Part shown: one piece after another, positions 2,951-14,976 of the stretch
Layout of the letters: the number at the start of each line of letters is the position of its first letter
Numbering within the stretch: position 1 is the stretch's first letter
DNA from: Neisseria sp. HMSC077D05
Lineage (GTDB): Bacteria; Pseudomonadota; Gammaproteobacteria; Burkholderiales; Neisseriaceae
NCBI GenBank assembly: GCA_001809325.1
Contig: KV796991.1
Location: 5,906-38,418, forward strand
DNA: 32,513 nt
Direction of reading: 5' to 3'
Position numbers and translations under genes: made by a program
The notes under the pieces: model-generated
The model's input: only the letters and a program-made list of their open reading frames with translations
Database searches by the model: none
Told to the model about the DNA's origin: nothing

Positions 2951-3068
2951 CCTGACCCGCGCAACTCAACATCATGCGCTGTCACAACACGCCCCTTTTA
3001 TCGGTATCCATCGATCGATGATGTTTACCGAAACCGGTTTTATTACAAAAAAACGAAAGGACTACCTC

Positions 3069-4421
3069 ATGTCGGACAATACGCAACCTACGCGGCAGGG
3101 CTTGCCCTCGCTGCCGAAAAGCACGATTTGGATGCTCAGTTTCGGCTTTCTCGGCGTTCAGACGGCCTTTACCCTGCAAAGTTCGCAGATGAGCCGCATC
3201 TTCCAGACGCTCGGCGCCGACCCGCACAGCCTCGGCTGGTTCTTTATCCTGCCGCCGTTGGCGGGGATGCTGGTACAGCCGATTGTCGGTCATTACTCCG
3301 ACCGCACTTGGAAGCCGCACTTGGGCGGCCGCCGTCTGCCGTATCTGCTTTACGGCACGCTGATTGCGGTCATCGTGATGATTTTGATGCCGAACTCGGG
3401 CAGCTTCGGCTTCGGCTATGCGTCTCTGGCGGCTTTGTCGTTCGGCGCGCTGATGATTGCGCTGTTGGACGTGTCGTCGAATATGGCGATGCAGCCGTTT
3501 AAGATGATGGTTGGCGACATGGTCAATGAGGAGCAGAAAAGCTACGCCTACGGGATTCAGAGCTTCTTGGCGAATACGGGCGCGGTTTTGGCGGCGATTC
3601 TGCCGTTTGTGTTTGCGTATATCGGTTTGGCGAACACTGCCGAGAAAGGCGTCGTGCCGCAGACCGTGGTCGTGGCGTTTTATGTGGGTGCGGCGTTGCT
3701 GGTGATTACCAGCGCGTTCACGATTTTCAAAGTGAAGGAATACGATCCGGAGACCTACGCCCGCTACCACGGCATAGATGTGGCGGCGAATCAGGAAAAG
3801 ACCAACTGGATCGAACTCTTGAAAACCGCGCCTAAGGCGTTTTGGACGGTTACTTTGGTGCAGTTTTTCTGCTGGTTCGCCTTCCAATATATGTGGATTT
3901 ATTCCACAGGCGCGATTGCGGAAAACGTCTGGCATGCGACCAATGCGTCTTCCGTAGGCTATCAGGAAGCGGGCAACTGGTATGGTGTATTGGCGGCGGT
4001 GCAGTCGGTTGCGGCAGTGATTTGTTCGTTTGTATTGGCAAAAATCCCCAACCGATACCATAAGGCGGGTTATTTCAGCTGTCTGGCTTTGGGCGCACTC
4101 GGCTTTTTCTCCGTTTGCTACATCAGTAACCAATACGCGCTGGTGTTGTCTTACACCTTAATCGGCATCGCTTGGGCGGGCATCATCACTTATCCGCTGA
4201 CGATTGTGACCAACGCCTTGTCGGGCAAACACATGGGCACTTACTTGGGCTTGTTCAACGGCTCCATCTGTATGCCCCAAATCGTCGCTTCGCTGTCGAC
4301 CGTCAAATTGTTCCCGATGCTGGGCGAGTTGCAGGCCAATATGTTCTTGGTAGGGGGCGTCGCCCTGCTGCTGGGCGCGTTTTCCGTGTTCCTGATTAAA
4401 GAAACACGCGGCGGCGCATAA
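3069..4421 (+). CDS. MFS sugar transporter (probable maltose uptake)
   Basis: The product has 450 residues and about 12 hydrophobic helices, typical of the major facilitator superfamily. The GxxxDR-like loop between helices 2 and 3 is visible as GHYSDRTWKPHLGGRRLPYL, as in the SLC45/sucrose-maltose branch. The start is ATG at 3069 with GAAAGGA seven bases upstream; an open extension to 2895 passes through an uptake-sequence hairpin and is not coding. The next genes encode maltose phosphorylase and beta-phosphoglucomutase, so the substrate is very probably maltose, taken up by proton symport across the inner membrane; this is inferred from context. In meningococcus I recall an aldose 1-epimerase gene between the equivalent genes; here there is none. 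Confidence 0.88.
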   Translation: MSDNTQPTRQGLPSLPKSTIWMLSFGFLGVQTAFTLQSSQMSRIFQTLGADPHSLGWFFILPPLAGMLVQPIVGHYSDRTWKPHLGGRRLPYLLYGTLIAVIVMILMPNSGSFGFGYASLAALSFGALMIALLDVSSNMAMQPFKMMVGDMVNEEQKSYAYGIQSFLANTGAVLAAILPFVFAYIGLANTAEKGVVPQTVVVAFYVGAALLVITSAFTIFKVKEYDPETYARYHGIDVAANQEKTNWIELLKTAPKAFWTVTLVQFFCWFAFQYMWIYSTGAIAENVWHATNASSVGYQEAGNWYGVLAAVQSVAAVICSFVLAKIPNRYHKAGYFSCLALGALGFFSVCYISNQYALVLSYTLIGIAWAGIITYPLTIVTNALSGKHMGTYLGLFNGSICMPQIVASLSTVKLFPMLGELQANMFLVGGVALLLGAFSVFLIKETRGGA

Positions 4422-7670: not shown

Positions 7671-7930
7671 CCCTCTCCCTAACCCTCTCCCACAGGGAGA
7701 GGGGACAAAATTGGCTGAAAATCCAAAAATGGCTGGGTTTCGGTATCCTCAATCCCTCTCCTGCGGGGAGAAGATACAAATTGGCTGGAAATCCCAAACA
7801 CGGTTGGGTTTCGGCATCCTCAATCCCCTCCCCCGCGGGGAGAAGGGACAAATTGGCTGGAAATCCCAAACATGGTTGGATTTCGGTATCCTTAATCCCC
7901 TCTCCCCGTGGGAGAGGGCTAGGGAGAGGG
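7671..7930. repeat. 71-bp tandem repeat array with inverted ends
   Basis: Three units lie at 7683-7753 (71), 7754-7824 (71) and 7825-7896 (72), with a truncated fourth at 7897-7930. Each starts with a CCCTCTCC.../GGGAGA hairpin and continues with ACAAATTGGCTGGAAATC and TTTCGGTATCCTCAAT. The outer borders CCCTCTCCCTAACCCTCTCCC (7671-7691) and its near-complement (7910-7930) match at 20 of 21 positions, so the whole array could fold as one large hairpin. Open frames across it on both strands are repeat artefacts. It fills most of the 620-base gap between pgmB and the ClbS-like gene, which holds no gene. Confidence 0.8.
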
Positions 7931-8626: not shown

Positions 8627-8650
8627 GGAAGTTCCCTCTGCTTGTTTTAG

Positions 8651-8700
8651 CGAAACTCGCTTCGCTCATTTTCAGAGTGCGCAGCCTCTTGGCGGGAAGA
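8651..8700 (+). repeat. Dispersed repeat, copy 3
   Basis: CGAAACTCGCTTCGCTCATT, then TTCAGAGTGCGCAGCCTC and TTGGCGGGA, the complement of the 8017-8069 copy. It fills the short gap between the permease stop (8706) and the ClbS-like start (8626). Together with copy 2 it brackets the ClbS-like gene. Confidence 0.75.
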
Positions 8701-8705
8701 TCTCG

Positions 8706-9818
8706 TCAATTCTGCTTCTCCAACATCCCTTGAAACCGCAACAATGCCAACCATAAGAATCCTACGCCGATACAGCCCATGATCAGCATATGTCCCCACA
8801 CGATTCCAATCCCCGCGCCGCGGAACAGGATGTCTTGTGAAAACTTCACAAACTGCGTCAGCGGCCAATATTCGCTGATCAGTTGTGCCGCGTGCGGCAT
8901 GTTGCTGCGCGGGGATGCGCCGCCGGCAAACAGGTTCATCACGATATACACCGGCAGCATCAGCATACCGAACTGCCCCATCGTCGATGCGAACGTGGCA
9001 ATCATGATGCCCAGCGACGCCACCGAAAACAGGAACAACGCCAGCCCCACCGCATAAAGCGGCACCGAGCCGATGAGCGGTACGCCTATGCCCAAATGTA
9101 CGATAAACCACAGCGACGACAAGGCCGCCACCCAAATCACGGCGGCATTTGCCAGCACTTTGCCCATCATCAGCTCGAACGCATTGACCGGCATCACCAG
9201 CAAATGCTCGATTGTACCGCGCTCGCGTTCGCGGATAACCGCCGCCCCCGTCAATAAAATCAGCAACATACACGACATCGAGCCGATTTGCGAAGTCGGC
9301 ATGAACCACGCGCTTTCGCCGTTGGGATTGTAATAAGTATTGATGACGGGGTTGATTAACTCCGGCCGCGTCACGCCGGTGAATTCGTAAATTTCGCGGT
9401 TGATAATTTGCGAAAGATAAGACGCGCCCACCCCCGCCTGCGTCATCGACGTCGCATCAACCAAAAGCTGCAAATCAGGATTGCGCCCCGCCGCCATGTC
9501 GCGCTGAAAATTGGGCGGCACTTCCAAAATAAAGGTGAACTCGCCCTTATCCATCAATTCGTCCGAATCTTCGCGCCGCACGTCCTCTACCGGTTTGAAA
9601 AACGGATGCTGCACGGCATCGCGGATACGCATGGACAAAACCGAACGGTCTTGGTCGATGATGCCGACAGTGGCATTTTTCAAATCCGCGCCCACCTGCG
9701 CCATCTGATAAATCGTGGCGGTAAAGATATACCCAATCAGCACCATCAGCACCGGATCAGTCAGCACGCTGCGGAACTCTTTGAGCATCAGGGTCAGAAT
9801 GTTTTTCAGGGTACGCAT
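8706..9818 (-). CDS. ABC-2 type transport permease (YhhJ-like)
   Basis: This 370-residue inner-membrane protein has the ABC-2 exporter permease layout. One helix lies near 20-40 (LMVLIGYIFTATIYQMA), followed by a large periplasmic domain (about 45-180, GIIDQDRSVLSMRIRDAV), then five helices from about 185 to 365. Between helices the coupling motif VIRERERGTIEHLLVMPV (about 195-212) contacts an ATPase. In E. coli, yhhJ follows yhiI and rbbA; here the matching RbbA-like ATPase-permease lies 2 kb upstream on the same strand (11875-14976), separated by three unrelated genes. ATG 9818 has AGGAG four to five bases upstream. No ATPase gene is adjacent, so it probably still works with the distant RbbA-like protein. 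Confidence 0.88.
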   Translation of the reverse strand: MRTLKNILTLMLKEFRSVLTDPVLMVLIGYIFTATIYQMAQVGADLKNATVGIIDQDRSVLSMRIRDAVQHPFFKPVEDVRREDSDELMDKGEFTFILEVPPNFQRDMAAGRNPDLQLLVDATSMTQAGVGASYLSQIINREIYEFTGVTRPELINPVINTYYNPNGESAWFMPTSQIGSMSCMLLILLTGAAVIRERERGTIEHLLVMPVNAFELMMGKVLANAAVIWVAALSSLWFIVHLGIGVPLIGSVPLYAVGLALFLFSVASLGIMIATFASTMGQFGMLMLPVYIVMNLFAGGASPRSNMPHAAQLISEYWPLTQFVKFSQDILFRGAGIGIVWGHMLIMGCIGVGFLWLALLRFQGMLEKQN

Positions 9819-11874: not shown

Positions 11875-14800
11875 TCACTTCTCCTGCTTCTTCAACAACA
11901 CACACGCCAGAATCAGGCTGGTGGCGGCAAAGGCGGCGATGGCGGCGTATTCATGCAGCAGGTCGGCGGTGTGCAGCCCTTTGGTGAAGCTGCCGACGCT
12001 GACGGTGTAGTACCACGACGACGGGAAGGTTTTGCCGATAACCAGCGCGCCGCCTTCCATGGTGGACAGCGGGTAGATAAAACCGGAATAGGTTTGCGCG
12101 GGAATCATGGTGATGATGGCGGTGGCGAAAATGGCGGCAAGCTGGGAGCGCACGAAGCAGGAAATCAAAAGCCCCAGCGCGGTGGTGGCGGACACCATCA
12201 AGAGCGTGCCGATGGCGAGTCCGGCAAACGAGCCTTTGAGCGGCACGCCGAACAGGTAAATAATCATCAGCATCATGGCGGCGAAGTTGACCATGCCGAC
12301 GGCGATATAGGGAAGCTGTTTACCGATCAGATATTGCGCCACGGCGGCGGGCGATGCGTAGAAATTGGCGATGGAACCGATTTCGCGTTCGCGCACCACG
12401 CCGACCGCCGACATCATGGCGGGTATCATCATCAACACCAGCATCATCACGCCCGGGGCGATGGCGTTGATGCTGTCGAAATCCTGATTGTACATAAAGC
12501 GCGGTTCGATGCCGGCGGGGGCTTTGAGCGAAACGGGCAGCCCGCTTTCGGCGATGCGGTCTTTGGTGTAGGCGGTGATCAGGCTGCCGATGTAGCCGCG
12601 GATGTTGGTGGCGTTAAACGGCATGGAGCCGTCCACATAAAAACCGACTTCGGGTTTGAGTCCGCGCGCCAAATCGCGCCCGAAACCGCTCGGAATATCG
12701 ATGACCAATATGGCGCCGGAGCTTTTGAGCACGGTGTCGATTTCGGCTTCGGACTGTATCGGCGGCTGTTGGAGGAAATAGCGCGAACCGTCGAAATATT
12801 CGACCAGCTCGCGGCTGGCGGCGGTTTGGTCGCGGTCGTAAACGGCGAATTTCAGATTCCGCACGTCAAACGAAATCCCCCATGATACCGACGCCATAAT
12901 AATCAGCGGGCCGAACACGGCGAAAAACAGGCGGATTTTGTCGCGCAAAAGCTCTTTGGCTTCGCGGCGGGCGAAGGTCCAAATCATGGAAAAACGGTAT
13001 TTGAAGGTGTCGGTGTTTGGGTTGTCTCGTAAGGTATGTGAACTTTGTTCACGCACGCTGTTTTGGGTTTCAGACGACCTCGTATCTTTTTGAAGGTCGT
13101 CTGAAAGTTCAGAATACCTGTCATCCGATTTCCTTTCCGCGTGCGTGGCTTGCGCCACACACCCTACGGTCGGAGTTTCTACTGGTAGGGCGTATGAACT
13201 TTGTTCACGCACGCCGTTTTGGGTTTCAGACGACCCTGTATCTTTTCCTTGAAGGTCGTCTGAAAGTTCAGAATGCCTGTCATCCGATTCCCCTTCCGCA
13301 TGCGTGGCTTGCTCCACACACCCTACGGTCAAAGTTTCCGCCGATAGGGTGTGTGAACTTTGTTCACGCACGCCGTCTACGTCTTGGCGAAACTCGCGCT
13401 GTTCACTTCCAGAGTGCGCAGCCTCCTGGCGGGATGACCTTTCCTCACCTTCCCCGCCTTCCGCTTCAATCAGATACTGTACAAACGCTTCTTCCAAATC
13501 CGGCGCATTCTGCCTTGCCGCCAGTTCGGCGGGCGTGCCCACCGCCAGCACGCGGCCTTTGTGCATAAAGGAAATGCGGTCGCAGCGGGCGGCTTCGTTC
13601 ATAAAGTGGGTGGAAACAAAAATGGTGATTTTGTCTTCGCGGGAGAGTTTCAGAAGATGCCGCCAGAACATATCGCGGGCGGCGGGATCGACCCCCGAAG
13701 TCGGTTCGTCCAAAATCAATACTTCGGGGTGGTGCAGGCAGGCGGCGGCCAGTTGCAGGCGTTGGCGGATGCCCAGCGGCAACGATGCAGGCGCGGTGTC
13801 GGCAACGTCCGCCAAATCAAACTGTTGCAGGGCTTCTTCCACCGCCGCCGCGCCTTTAGCGCCCATCTGGTAGAGTCTGGCGTGCAAATCCAAATTGCGG
13901 CGCACGCTCAGTTCCTCATACAGCGAAAACGCCTGCGACATATAGCCGACACGCATTTTCGTATCCAAGCCGCCCGCGTCTATCGGCTTGCCCAACAGCG
14001 TGGCGTCACCTTCGGTCGCTTCCAACAGACCGGTCAACATTTTCATGGTGGTGGACTTGCCGCAGCCGTTGCTGCCGAGAAAGCCGAAAATCTCGCCTTT
14101 TTGAATGGTGAAGCTGACGTGATCCACGGCGGTAAAATCGCCGAAACGCTTGGTCAGCCCGTGCGCTTCCATCGCGGGCGGCGCATCGTGATCAGGGACG
14201 AACGGCGTAATGTCCAAACCGCCCGAACCCTGCTGTTTTTCCGGCGGCAGCATTTTGACGTAGGCTTCTTCCAATACATCAGTGCCGTAATCCGCCAGCA
14301 CATCGGCGGTGGGCTTGTTTTCCAGCAGCCTACCCGCGTCCATCGCCAGCAGCCGCTCGAAACGCTGCGCTTCTTCAATATAGGCGGTCGCCACAATCAC
14401 GGTCATGCCCGAATGTTCCCGCCGCAAATCGTCCACCAACGCCCAAAACTGGCGGCGCGACAAAGGGTCCACGCCCGTGGTCGGTTCGTCCAAAATCAGC
14501 AAATCCGGGCTGTGCACCAGCGCGCAGCACAAACTTAGCTTCTGCTTCATCCCGCCCGAGAGCTTGCCCGCCGCCCTATCGGAAAACGGCGCAAGGCGGG
14601 TCGCCTCCATCAGCCGCGTAATCTGCCGAGTGCGTTCCTGCCCGTCCAAACCAAACAGCCGCGCATGGAAATCGATATTCTCATACACCGACAAGGTAGG
14701 ATACAGGTTGCGCCCCAAACCCTGCGGCATAAAGGCGATGCGGTGCGACAAGTCCCGCCGCACGTCCTTGTCCGCCATATCGCCGCCCAACACTTCCACC

Positions 14801-14976
14801 CGTCCGTCCTGAATCACCTTCACCCCCGCCATCAACGAGAGCAGCGTCGATTTGCCCACCCCGTCCGGCCCGATCAAACCGACCGTCGCGCCTTTCGGAA
14901 TGTCCAGCGACACATCGTCAAGCGCAAGGGTCTTGCCGTAGCGGTGGGAAAGGTTTTGGATAGAAACGGTGTTCAT
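11875..14976 (-). CDS. rbbA: ABC-ABC-permease fusion exporter, RbbA/YhiH type, with repeat-derived linker
   Basis: The 1033-residue protein has two ATPase domains and an ABC-2 permease in one chain. ABC1 is about 1-245: Walker A GPDGVGKST (36-44), signature LSGGMKQ (139-145), Walker B LLILDEPTTGVD (159-170). ABC2 is about 268-500: Walker A GSNGCGKST (301-309), degenerate signature LPLGIRQ (399-405), Walker B VLILDEPTSGVD (419-430). The permease is about 660-1033, with a periplasmic loop from FAVYDRDQTAASREL and the coupling segment VVREREIGSIANFYASP. E. coli RbbA is about 910 residues; the excess is a hydrophilic linker (about 505-655) encoded by a dispersed repeat and a tandem 52-53-residue repeat carrying four uptake sequences, all kept in frame. 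Its HlyD-type partner is not next to it. Ribosome association is claimed for E. coli RbbA, but export is the sequence-based reading. Confidence 0.9.
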   Translation of the reverse strand: MNTVSIQNLSHRYGKTLALDDVSLDIPKGATVGLIGPDGVGKSTLLSLMAGVKVIQDGRVEVLGGDMADKDVRRDLSHRIAFMPQGLGRNLYPTLSVYENIDFHARLFGLDGQERTRQITRLMEATRLAPFSDRAAGKLSGGMKQKLSLCCALVHSPDLLILDEPTTGVDPLSRRQFWALVDDLRREHSGMTVIVATAYIEEAQRFERLLAMDAGRLLENKPTADVLADYGTDVLEEAYVKMLPPEKQQGSGGLDITPFVPDHDAPPAMEAHGLTKRFGDFTAVDHVSFTIQKGEIFGFLGSNGCGKSTTMKMLTGLLEATEGDATLLGKPIDAGGLDTKMRVGYMSQAFSLYEELSVRRNLDLHARLYQMGAKGAAAVEEALQQFDLADVADTAPASLPLGIRQRLQLAAACLHHPEVLILDEPTSGVDPAARDMFWRHLLKLSREDKITIFVSTHFMNEAARCDRISFMHKGRVLAVGTPAELAARQNAPDLEEAFVQYLIEAEGGEGEERSSRQEAAHSGSEQREFRQDVDGVREQSSHTLSAETLTVGCVEQATHAEGESDDRHSELSDDLQGKDTGSSETQNGVREQSSYALPVETPTVGCVAQATHAERKSDDRYSELSDDLQKDTRSSETQNSVREQSSHTLRDNPNTDTFKYRFSMIWTFARREAKELLRDKIRLFFAVFGPLIIMASVSWGISFDVRNLKFAVYDRDQTAASRELVEYFDGSRYFLQQPPIQSEAEIDTVLKSSGAILVIDIPSGFGRDLARGLKPEVGFYVDGSMPFNATNIRGYIGSLITAYTKDRIAESGLPVSLKAPAGIEPRFMYNQDFDSINAIAPGVMMLVLMMIPAMMSAVGVVREREIGSIANFYASPAAVAQYLIGKQLPYIAVGMVNFAAMMLMIIYLFGVPLKGSFAGLAIGTLLMVSATTALGLLISCFVRSQLAAIFATAIITMIPAQTYSGFIYPLSTMEGGALVIGKTFPSSWYYTVSVGSFTKGLHTADLLHEYAAIAAFAATSLILACVLLKKQEK
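13027..13371 (-). repeat. In-frame tandem repeat with uptake-sequence hairpins, inside rbbA
   Basis: Unit A 13213-13371 (53 codons), unit B 13057-13212 (52 codons) and a partial unit C 13027-13056. The translated unit runs from VREQSS through ETxTVGCVxQATHAE, SDDRxSELSDDLQ and SSETQN. Each full unit contains an inverted uptake-sequence pair: 13068-13080 with 13094-13106, and 13224-13235 with 13253-13265. It also holds a second small palindrome around GCGTGGCTTGCGCCACACAC. These are intergenic-type repeats that have become coding sequence. Confidence 0.85.
13388..13440 (+). repeat. Dispersed repeat, copy 4, inside rbbA
   Basis: CGAAACTCGCGCTGTTCAC, then TTCCAGAGTGCGCAGCCTCC and TGGCGGGATGACCT, match the copies at 8651-8700 and 8017-8069. 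Here it is translated in the linker as RSSRQEAAHSGSEQREFR (residues 513-530), directly before the tandem units. Confidence 0.8.

Follow-up and report, generated by a model that had tools for sequence, protein, structure and literature searches.

In the genus Neisseria, the joint between the second nucleotide-binding domain (NBD2) of the ABC protein RbbA and its permease domain is a sink for DNA uptake sequences (DUS). We think it probable that a permissive domain boundary has here been overrun by transformation-driven DUS together with repetitive extragenic palindromes (REPs), filtered for a reading frame that yields disordered peptide and against termination of transcription inside the gene. 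Our reference is a stretch of 32,513 nucleotides from the oral Neisseria sp. HMSC077D05 (contig KV796991.1; genome G000 below), called the window throughout, in which rbbA occupies positions 11875-14976 of the minus strand as an open frame of 1033 amino acids (aa). This open reading frame (ORF) is RbbA judging from its match to the NF033858 equivalog model (909 positions; 1380.9 bits against a curated cut-off of 1050) and from its domain order, with PF00005 in two stretches (NBD1 and NBD2), then the linker, then the ABC2 permease PF12698 at residues 683-1025; the ribosome-stimulated ATPase activity is only putative here, and one paper on E. coli RbbA has been retracted (PMC12169533). What is unusual about the linker is the density of its DUS, the single frame in which they are read and the reversed order of their inverted pairs.

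The linker comprises residues 504-658 (155 aa; 13003-13467, minus strand), from the end of NBD2 at LEEAFVQYLI to the start of the permease at KYRFSMIW, and is acidic, with 35 Asp and Glu against 15 Lys and Arg in the 156-aa stretch counted. The E. coli protein has about 910 residues. Read on the minus strand from the N-terminal side, the linker consists of a short lead, a dispersed repeat (13381-13440), repeat unit 1 of 53 codons (13216-13374), unit 2 of 52 codons (13060-13215), the stub of a third unit (13030-13059, SVREQSSHTL) and a nine-residue tail (13003-13029, RDNPNTDTF), after which the permease part begins at 13002 and runs downwards. The two units are identical at 141 of 156 positions; unit spacing is 156 and 159 bp, a 128-nt pair shows 90% identity, and a 65-nt family has three copies, the third at 60%. 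Each unit holds two opposed REP-type palindromes with TAGGG-type ends, after which the uptake core GTCGTCTGAA occurs as an inverted pair. No other full 159-bp unit was found in the G000 genome, where partial matches span 29-37 bp only (40 of 1558 candidates scored). This anatomy bears out the original prediction, which had described repeats translated without a stop between the second ATPase and the permease and four uptake sequences arranged as two inverted pairs. It had also held that the same elements are intergenic elsewhere in the window, which is true of the DUS pairs and of the dispersed repeat, whose window copy at 8644-8703 (82% over 60 nt) lies between called genes, but not of the REP palindromes: TAGGGTGYGTG, allowing at most one mismatch, matches three times in the window, every time in the linker. 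The absence of stops was itself discarded as a remarkable feature, for the linker DNA contains 0, 5 and 11 stops in the gene-strand frames and 9, 2 and 0 in the opposite ones, leaving two of the six frames open. At 8706-9818 (minus strand), not next to rbbA, the window also carries a gene for an ABC2 permease akin to that of RbbA.

The four DUS cores of the linker lie on the plus strand at 13255-13264 and 13096-13105 (reverse complement in the gene, both read SDDL) and on the minus strand at 13225-13234 and 13069-13078 (forward in the gene, read GSSE and RSSE). They match the mucDUS dialect with an exact core, which is strongly over-represented; the window contains 39 copies of GYCGTCTGAA against 0.15 expected, and the G000 genome 3246 copies of GGYCGTCTGAAA. 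According to the text available from the dialect study, mucDUS-dependent transformation of its own group had yet to be shown (Frye 2013, PMC3630211). When 45 Neisseria genomes, each from a different species, were searched with the protein, 24 intact RbbA ORFs were obtained, in which the core GYCGTCTGAA was counted on both strands. The 24 linkers together hold 102 DUS cores in 10,299 bp (9.9/kb), while only 11 occur in the 63,465 bp of the same genes outside the linker, and nine of these share a single site, LPSEK, at about residue 247 between NBD1 and NBD2. At least two DUS occur in 23 of the 24 linkers, the exception being G029 with none of the core and two DUS of the wadDUS dialect. The background was taken from the relative G019, sampled as twenty 20-kb stretches (one of them entirely masked, which leaves 380 kb unmasked) with 333 called genes: 143 of its 555 DUS fall in called genes, at 0.48/kb inside and 4.98/kb outside. 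On these rates all linkers together would be expected to carry 5 DUS if they behaved as coding and 51 if they behaved as non-coding DNA, and the four DUS in the 465 bp of the G000 linker compare with an expectation of 0.22 at the rate of coding DNA (p 9e-5). The G000 linker thus resembles intergenic DNA, whereas the whole set is richer, and the RbbA linker is a DUS sink across the intact Neisseria copies. Columns within DUS also vary less than others (3/50 against 95/442, p 0.008), a weak comparison given that the sites were picked for holding DUS.

The DUS of the linkers are all read in one frame. Every forward copy (69/69) stands in frame 2, with TCT-GAA as codons giving RPSE, RSSE, MPSE and the like, and every reverse copy (33/33) is also in frame 2, read SDG or SDD (SDGL/SDDL). 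Forward DUS within the called genes of the G019 sample are in frame 1 in 59 cases, in frame 2 in 11 and in frame 0, which contains a stop, in none, so that the forward frame used by the linkers is the rarer one elsewhere; of the reverse coding DUS there, 45 are in frame 2, 23 in frame 1 and 5 in frame 0. If each lineage, counted by eye, is given a single vote, the forward ratio is 12:0 against 11:59 (p 1.6e-8). The resulting peptide is probably disordered by the charge-hydropathy rule: all 21 linkers measured (G003, G011 and G029 are outside this set) fall on the disordered side of the line, and NBD1 and NBD2 of G000 RbbA do not.

The order of the inverted pairs is the second peculiarity. Inverted DUS pairs are known as transcription terminators (PMC2397512, PMC3630211), in the arrangement of a DUS followed by its reverse complement and a T-run. 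Both pairs of the G000 linker have the opposite order, reverse complement then DUS, and so do 27 of the 28 close inverted pairs (60 nt or less) found in the linkers, spread over 13 of the 24. The nine other DUS pairs of the window all run DUS-then-reverse complement, as do 99 intergenic pairs of the G019 sample against 29 in the reversed order (5 mixed pairs left out); among pairs within called genes of that sample the reversed order is seen in four of five. Counted by lineage, again by eye, the comparison stands at 8:1 against 29:99 (p 1e-4). The reading frame does not dictate this order, since either arrangement would be free of stops in the frame used. The two linker DUS hairpins of G000 have predicted stabilities of -20.4 and -19.4 kcal/mol (z -5.9 and -4.1) and are followed by CCCAAAAC, with no U-run on the gene strand; a terminator scan of the linker returned none on the gene strand and one on the opposite strand (13221-13236). 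Selection against intragenic termination is likely to lie behind the reversed order. As a side observation, the window pairs 2305/2331 and 2911/2940 are situated inside called ORFs near their starts, which are possibly over-extended.

The palindromes that accompany the DUS resemble the published GTAG-tagged REPs (PMC3733652), which have a GTAG end and a palindrome of 20-40 bp and occur as opposed dimers. Unit 1 contains one at 13345-13371, whose plus strand reads ATAGGGTGTGTG... with the tag ATAG, and another in the opposite orientation at 13296-13328, whose gene strand reads CCGTAGGGTGTGTG...CACGCA with the tag GTAG. Their counterparts in unit 2 are found at 13186-13212 (plus strand GTAGGGCGTATG..., tag intact and stem changed) and at 13137-13169 (gene strand, tag GTAG), the latter predicted to form a hairpin of -19.5 kcal/mol (z -4.6), and the stub retains a copy at 13030-13056 (plus strand GTAAGGTATGTG...) with a changed tag and a weak hairpin (z -1.5). 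The exact GTAG tag is thus present in three of the five, namely in the forward copy of each unit and in the reverse copy of unit 2, the others carrying ATAG and GTAA. A strict REP pattern occurs 6 times in G000 and 11 times in G019, and these 17 copies are distributed as 5 in rbbA, 11 outside called genes and 1 inside a hrpA-like ORF.

Across the relatives the linker varies in length and in its repeats. Its length in the 24 intact copies ranges from 38 to 278 aa (median about 154), and six species with nearly identical cores have linkers of 155 (G000), 153, 151, 145, 253 and 62 aa, so that unit number and length do differ among relatives, as the original prediction had expected. The tandem repeats that have grown in the linkers of G000, G024, G038 and G044 are unrelated to each other: G024 (253 aa) has three units of 58-60 codons plus a partial fourth and a different GTAG palindrome (GTAGGTTGGGTC...; 8 in the genome, four of them in rbbA), G038 has four 43-codon units and part of a fifth, and G044 two 83-codon units. 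In a tree of the cores G024 groups with G000 and G022 with G007, at modest support, and linker type therefore does not follow the core. Over 15 species pairs dN/dS is 0.02-0.17 for the core and 0.35-1.11 for the linker, whose alignment is uncertain where repeats differ. The linker is under weak sequence constraint, yet it is kept open and hydrophilic. Paralogous clusters (G034:C31, G028:C38, G070, G071 and G077) encode a double ATPase of 590-619 aa and permeases in separate ORFs, which makes the joint a natural border between modules, where spacers of many kinds should be tolerated; the G028 cluster shows stops.

These data bear on the proposal, made in the original prediction, that the linker is a tunable tether in which recombination varies the number of units and spacer length adjusts the coupling of the ATPases to the membrane part. 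We regard this as unlikely. Units of 159 and 156 bp, the span from 62 to 253 aa among six near-identical cores and the predicted disorder of every linker measured would all suit a tether; that both unit lengths are multiples of three, which had been put forward in its favour, is forced by an intact frame. Against regulated length speak the weak constraint, the unrelated repeats that serve sister species and the fact that most species without DUS manage with a far shorter spacer. In the wider search (best 80 of 454 candidate stretches, at 79 loci, four of them without a full ORF), 65 of the 68 full RbbA ORFs from outside the Neisseriaceae have linkers of 31-57 aa. The G000 protein has both NBDs and the permease domain in common with the NF033858 family and differs by the size of its linker; a spacer at this position is not in itself new.

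Within the Neisseriaceae the tags of the linker often belong to the local dialect. In other genera of the family, six of the nine genomes with tags around the gene carry tags in the linker, namely three eikDUS in G047 (a genome with 2708 eikDUS), two simDUS in G080, and simDUS or kingDUS in G053, G056, G063 and G081; 12 of these 17 other-dialect tags are in the equivalent frame. The 17 Neisseriaceae rows of our comparison without any of seven cores at the locus (g4, g6, g10) have linkers of 35-46 aa. Strict tracking of dialects was nevertheless rejected, as the linkers of G006, G039 and G026 mix the AG-DUS dialect with their own wadDUS type. In these three genomes the wadDUS-type CCTGTCTGAA is the commonest 10-mer (111, 36 and 35 copies in 100, 40 and 40 kb), and the 100 kb of G006 contain 111 CCTGTCTGAA against 8 GCCGTCTGAA. 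In their linkers one wadDUS stands forward at residue 514 and another in reverse at 627/628. The same wadDUS at 514 recurs in G002, G027 and G044, though G002 and G027 are AG-DUS genomes, and the site at residues 627-631 is an AG-DUS in G006, G027 and G044, an eikDUS in G039 and G026 and nearly an eikDUS in G002. Such mixed dialects fit a transfer of rbbA segments between species. A separate observation concerns the genomes rather than the gene: in the sampled stretches of G006, G039 and G026 (L263-L271) ATGCCTGTCTGAA, of the wadDUS type, is the commonest tag though closely related genomes use AG-DUS, and a dialect switch has taken place within this tight group.

Outside the family, the longer linkers are those of L054 (93 aa), L051 (117 aa) and Cardiobacterium valvarum L055 (247 aa). 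The last is built of copies of a unit with GTAGGGTGGGCTTCAGCCCACC, a GTAG-type palindrome of its own with 17 exact occurrences in the C. valvarum genome (of which four are in rbbA, three in weakly scoring small ORFs and ten outside called genes), and none of the DUS cores scanned is present in its 247 aa. The Cardiobacteriaceae RbbA (L055, L051) is placed within Neisseria by a tree that has long branches and in which some forks are weak. It is accordingly doubtful that Cardiobacterium represents an independent lineage of linker growth; the tree suggests transfer of RbbA between the families Neisseriaceae and Cardiobacteriaceae, and the Cardiobacterium gene may be a transferred copy that has lost its DUS and had them replaced by local repeats.

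Another view is that the linker is an adaptive uptake cassette that helps a patchy rbbA to move between strains and species, even across dialects. Intact RbbA was not found in 21 of the 45 Neisseria genomes: 18 have distant ABC matches only (among candidates scored), G028 has an RbbA paralogue only, the gene of G031 is cut by a contig end, and that of G012 seems broken, with residues 3-122 and 349-744 in different ORFs (G012:C72:63114-64506). The linker group of G002, G039, G006, G027, G026 and G044 combines AG-DUS with wadDUS, and in G039 and G026 with eikDUS too, and the position of the Cardiobacteriaceae branch points the same way. Yet linkers of HrpA-like, Mfd-like and LigA-like proteins carry DUS as well, making them nothing special to a patchy gene, no scanned core is left in Cardiobacterium, and one DUS is enough for uptake (Treangen 2008, PMC2397512). 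We consider a cassette improbable.

The explanation that we favour, a permissive boundary overrun by DUS and REPs, would work as follows. The joint of NBD2 and permease is permissive and probably disordered. Point mutation or the import of recombined DNA would supply it with DUS, and these would be kept because DNA bearing them is preferentially taken up and recombined, a transformation drive; blocks of REP and DUS would then duplicate in tandem by ordinary recombination, as the repeat structure suggests. Two filters may act on this influx. The frame must yield a hydrophilic, acidic peptide, which would account for the single frame observed, and a hairpin of the order reverse complement then DUS, with no U-run, would spare transcription inside the gene. 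RbbA itself would need merely some flexible spacer, which could drift in length and sequence with its frame preserved.

Several observations weigh against this explanation. Taken alone, the G000 linker is no richer in DUS than intergenic DNA (2.3 expected, p 0.20), the background counts depend on a home-made gene caller, and the species behind the lineage counts are non-independent. One linker pair, in G041, has terminator order, and the reversed order also occurs in 29 of 128 intergenic pairs. Among the other dialects, 5 of the 17 linker tags are off-frame (G053, G056 and G081), most of them overlapping partners, and G057, G058 and G062 have tags in the gene and none in their 32-aa linkers. 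The linkers of the wadDUS-type genomes G006, G039 and G026, finally, keep four to five perfect AG-DUS.

We consider very unlikely a role at the RNA level, in which hairpins of the inside-out DUS pairs and REPs would delay translation where the two domains meet and assist insertion into the membrane. The two DUS hairpins and one REP hairpin are predicted to be stable and lack a U-run on the gene strand, but 11 of the 24 linkers lack any closely spaced inverted core pair and the palindrome of the stub folds no better than chance. Chance or an artefact of misassembly, or a frameshifted pseudogene, can be dismissed despite G000 being a draft of 182 contigs, since relatives including the single-contig genomes G019 and G007 share an open linker of this kind, the core is under strong constraint, and linker-less close relatives coupled with frameshifts, the outcome that would have spoken for an artefact, were not seen among the close relatives examined.

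RbbA is not the only protein with an insert of this kind. The hrpA-like ORF of G000 (L241:2020-5982, G000:C165; 1320 aa, with HA2_C, OB_NTP_bind and DUF3418) has an insert of about 400 aa at about residues 414-826 that contains translated repeats, DUS, a similar REP (VREPSSHTL) and SDDL/SDDP, and it holds a GNAT domain (PF13673, 2e-15). A domain-like stretch of about 75 aa in the same insert is related (40%, E 6e-15) to one in the 137-aa RbbA linker of G081 (L171, locus 3066-3476), which had no Pfam match at E up to 1. The best-matching hrpA-like open frames in 13 genomes vary from 949 to 1544 aa, and that of G003 has a short insert only. An Mfd-like ORF (L260:1372-5250, G000:C107) has PSPVGEGWGEG-type repeats and SDDL in frame in the middle of the protein, and a LigA-like ORF has GEGWGEG-type repeats or SDDL in frame, both labels being assigned by eye. 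In the window, three tandem 72-nt repeats at 7683-7897 with CCCTCTCC...GGGAGA palindromes look like intergenic kin of the in-frame GEGWGEG repeats. Since identical kinds of tag and palindrome are found along intergenic DNA, small genes and permissive linkers, transformation with recombination between tags could insert domains in frame. The GNAT domain between translated hrpA-like repeats and the 75-aa stretch common to that insert and the G081 linker lead us to float, tentatively, the idea that linkers lined with DUS and REPs are landing pads for the in-frame capture of foreign coding DNA, even of whole domains.

Parts of this picture have precedents. Intragenic GTAG/CGTC REPs, often as dimers, occur in frame inside ORFs, encode 43-82 aa as clusters in Thauera and R. 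conorii and have many hosts among genes for DNA synthesis and repair (BMC Genomics 2013, PMC3733652). The RbbA palindromes are similarly in frame but form tandem units together with DUS pairs, and a single linker is targeted in many species with unrelated repeats; RbbA is unmentioned in the available portion of that study. The palindromic elements of Rickettsia, repeats in frame in many proteins (Ogata et al. 2000, 2002, per PMC3733652 and PMC10969869), enter unrelated genes as described there, where uptake tags do not come up, whereas RbbA shows the recurrent growth of one linker, with uptake tags. For DUS it has been reported that they are conserved while their surroundings drift and that intragenic copies are common, and a molecular drive into non-coding and unconstrained coding DNA, dialects and peregrine DUS have all been proposed or described (PMC2397512, PMC3630211, PMC1939737, PMC2346458). 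To speak of an unusual fate for uptake sequences was therefore too strong, as their presence in permissive coding DNA was already known. The accounts of DUS in permissive genes, in the portions accessible to us, are mostly genome-wide averages and feature no linker with the density, single frame and reversed order seen in RbbA. In-frame REPs and DUS in permissive coding DNA have thus each been published, and it is their combination that is new. Findlay and Redfield are said to have treated uptake sequences and proteomes in 2009. No report of a DUS- or REP-built RbbA linker was found in the literature searched, to which most subscription papers and supplements did not belong.

With replicate lineages, several dialects and DUS-free outgroups, the RbbA linker is a clean site at which molecular drive could be distinguished from selection on the frame and from selection against termination within the gene. 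It also serves as a warning that differences in length between such proteins are not necessarily a sign of functional tuning. For the genus as a whole, it signifies that a preference at the level of DNA, that for uptake tags, can determine the amino-acid sequence of a stretch of protein. It also hints at how domains might be captured in frame, and if linkers of this type do act as landing pads, natural transformation would be a route to new protein architectures.

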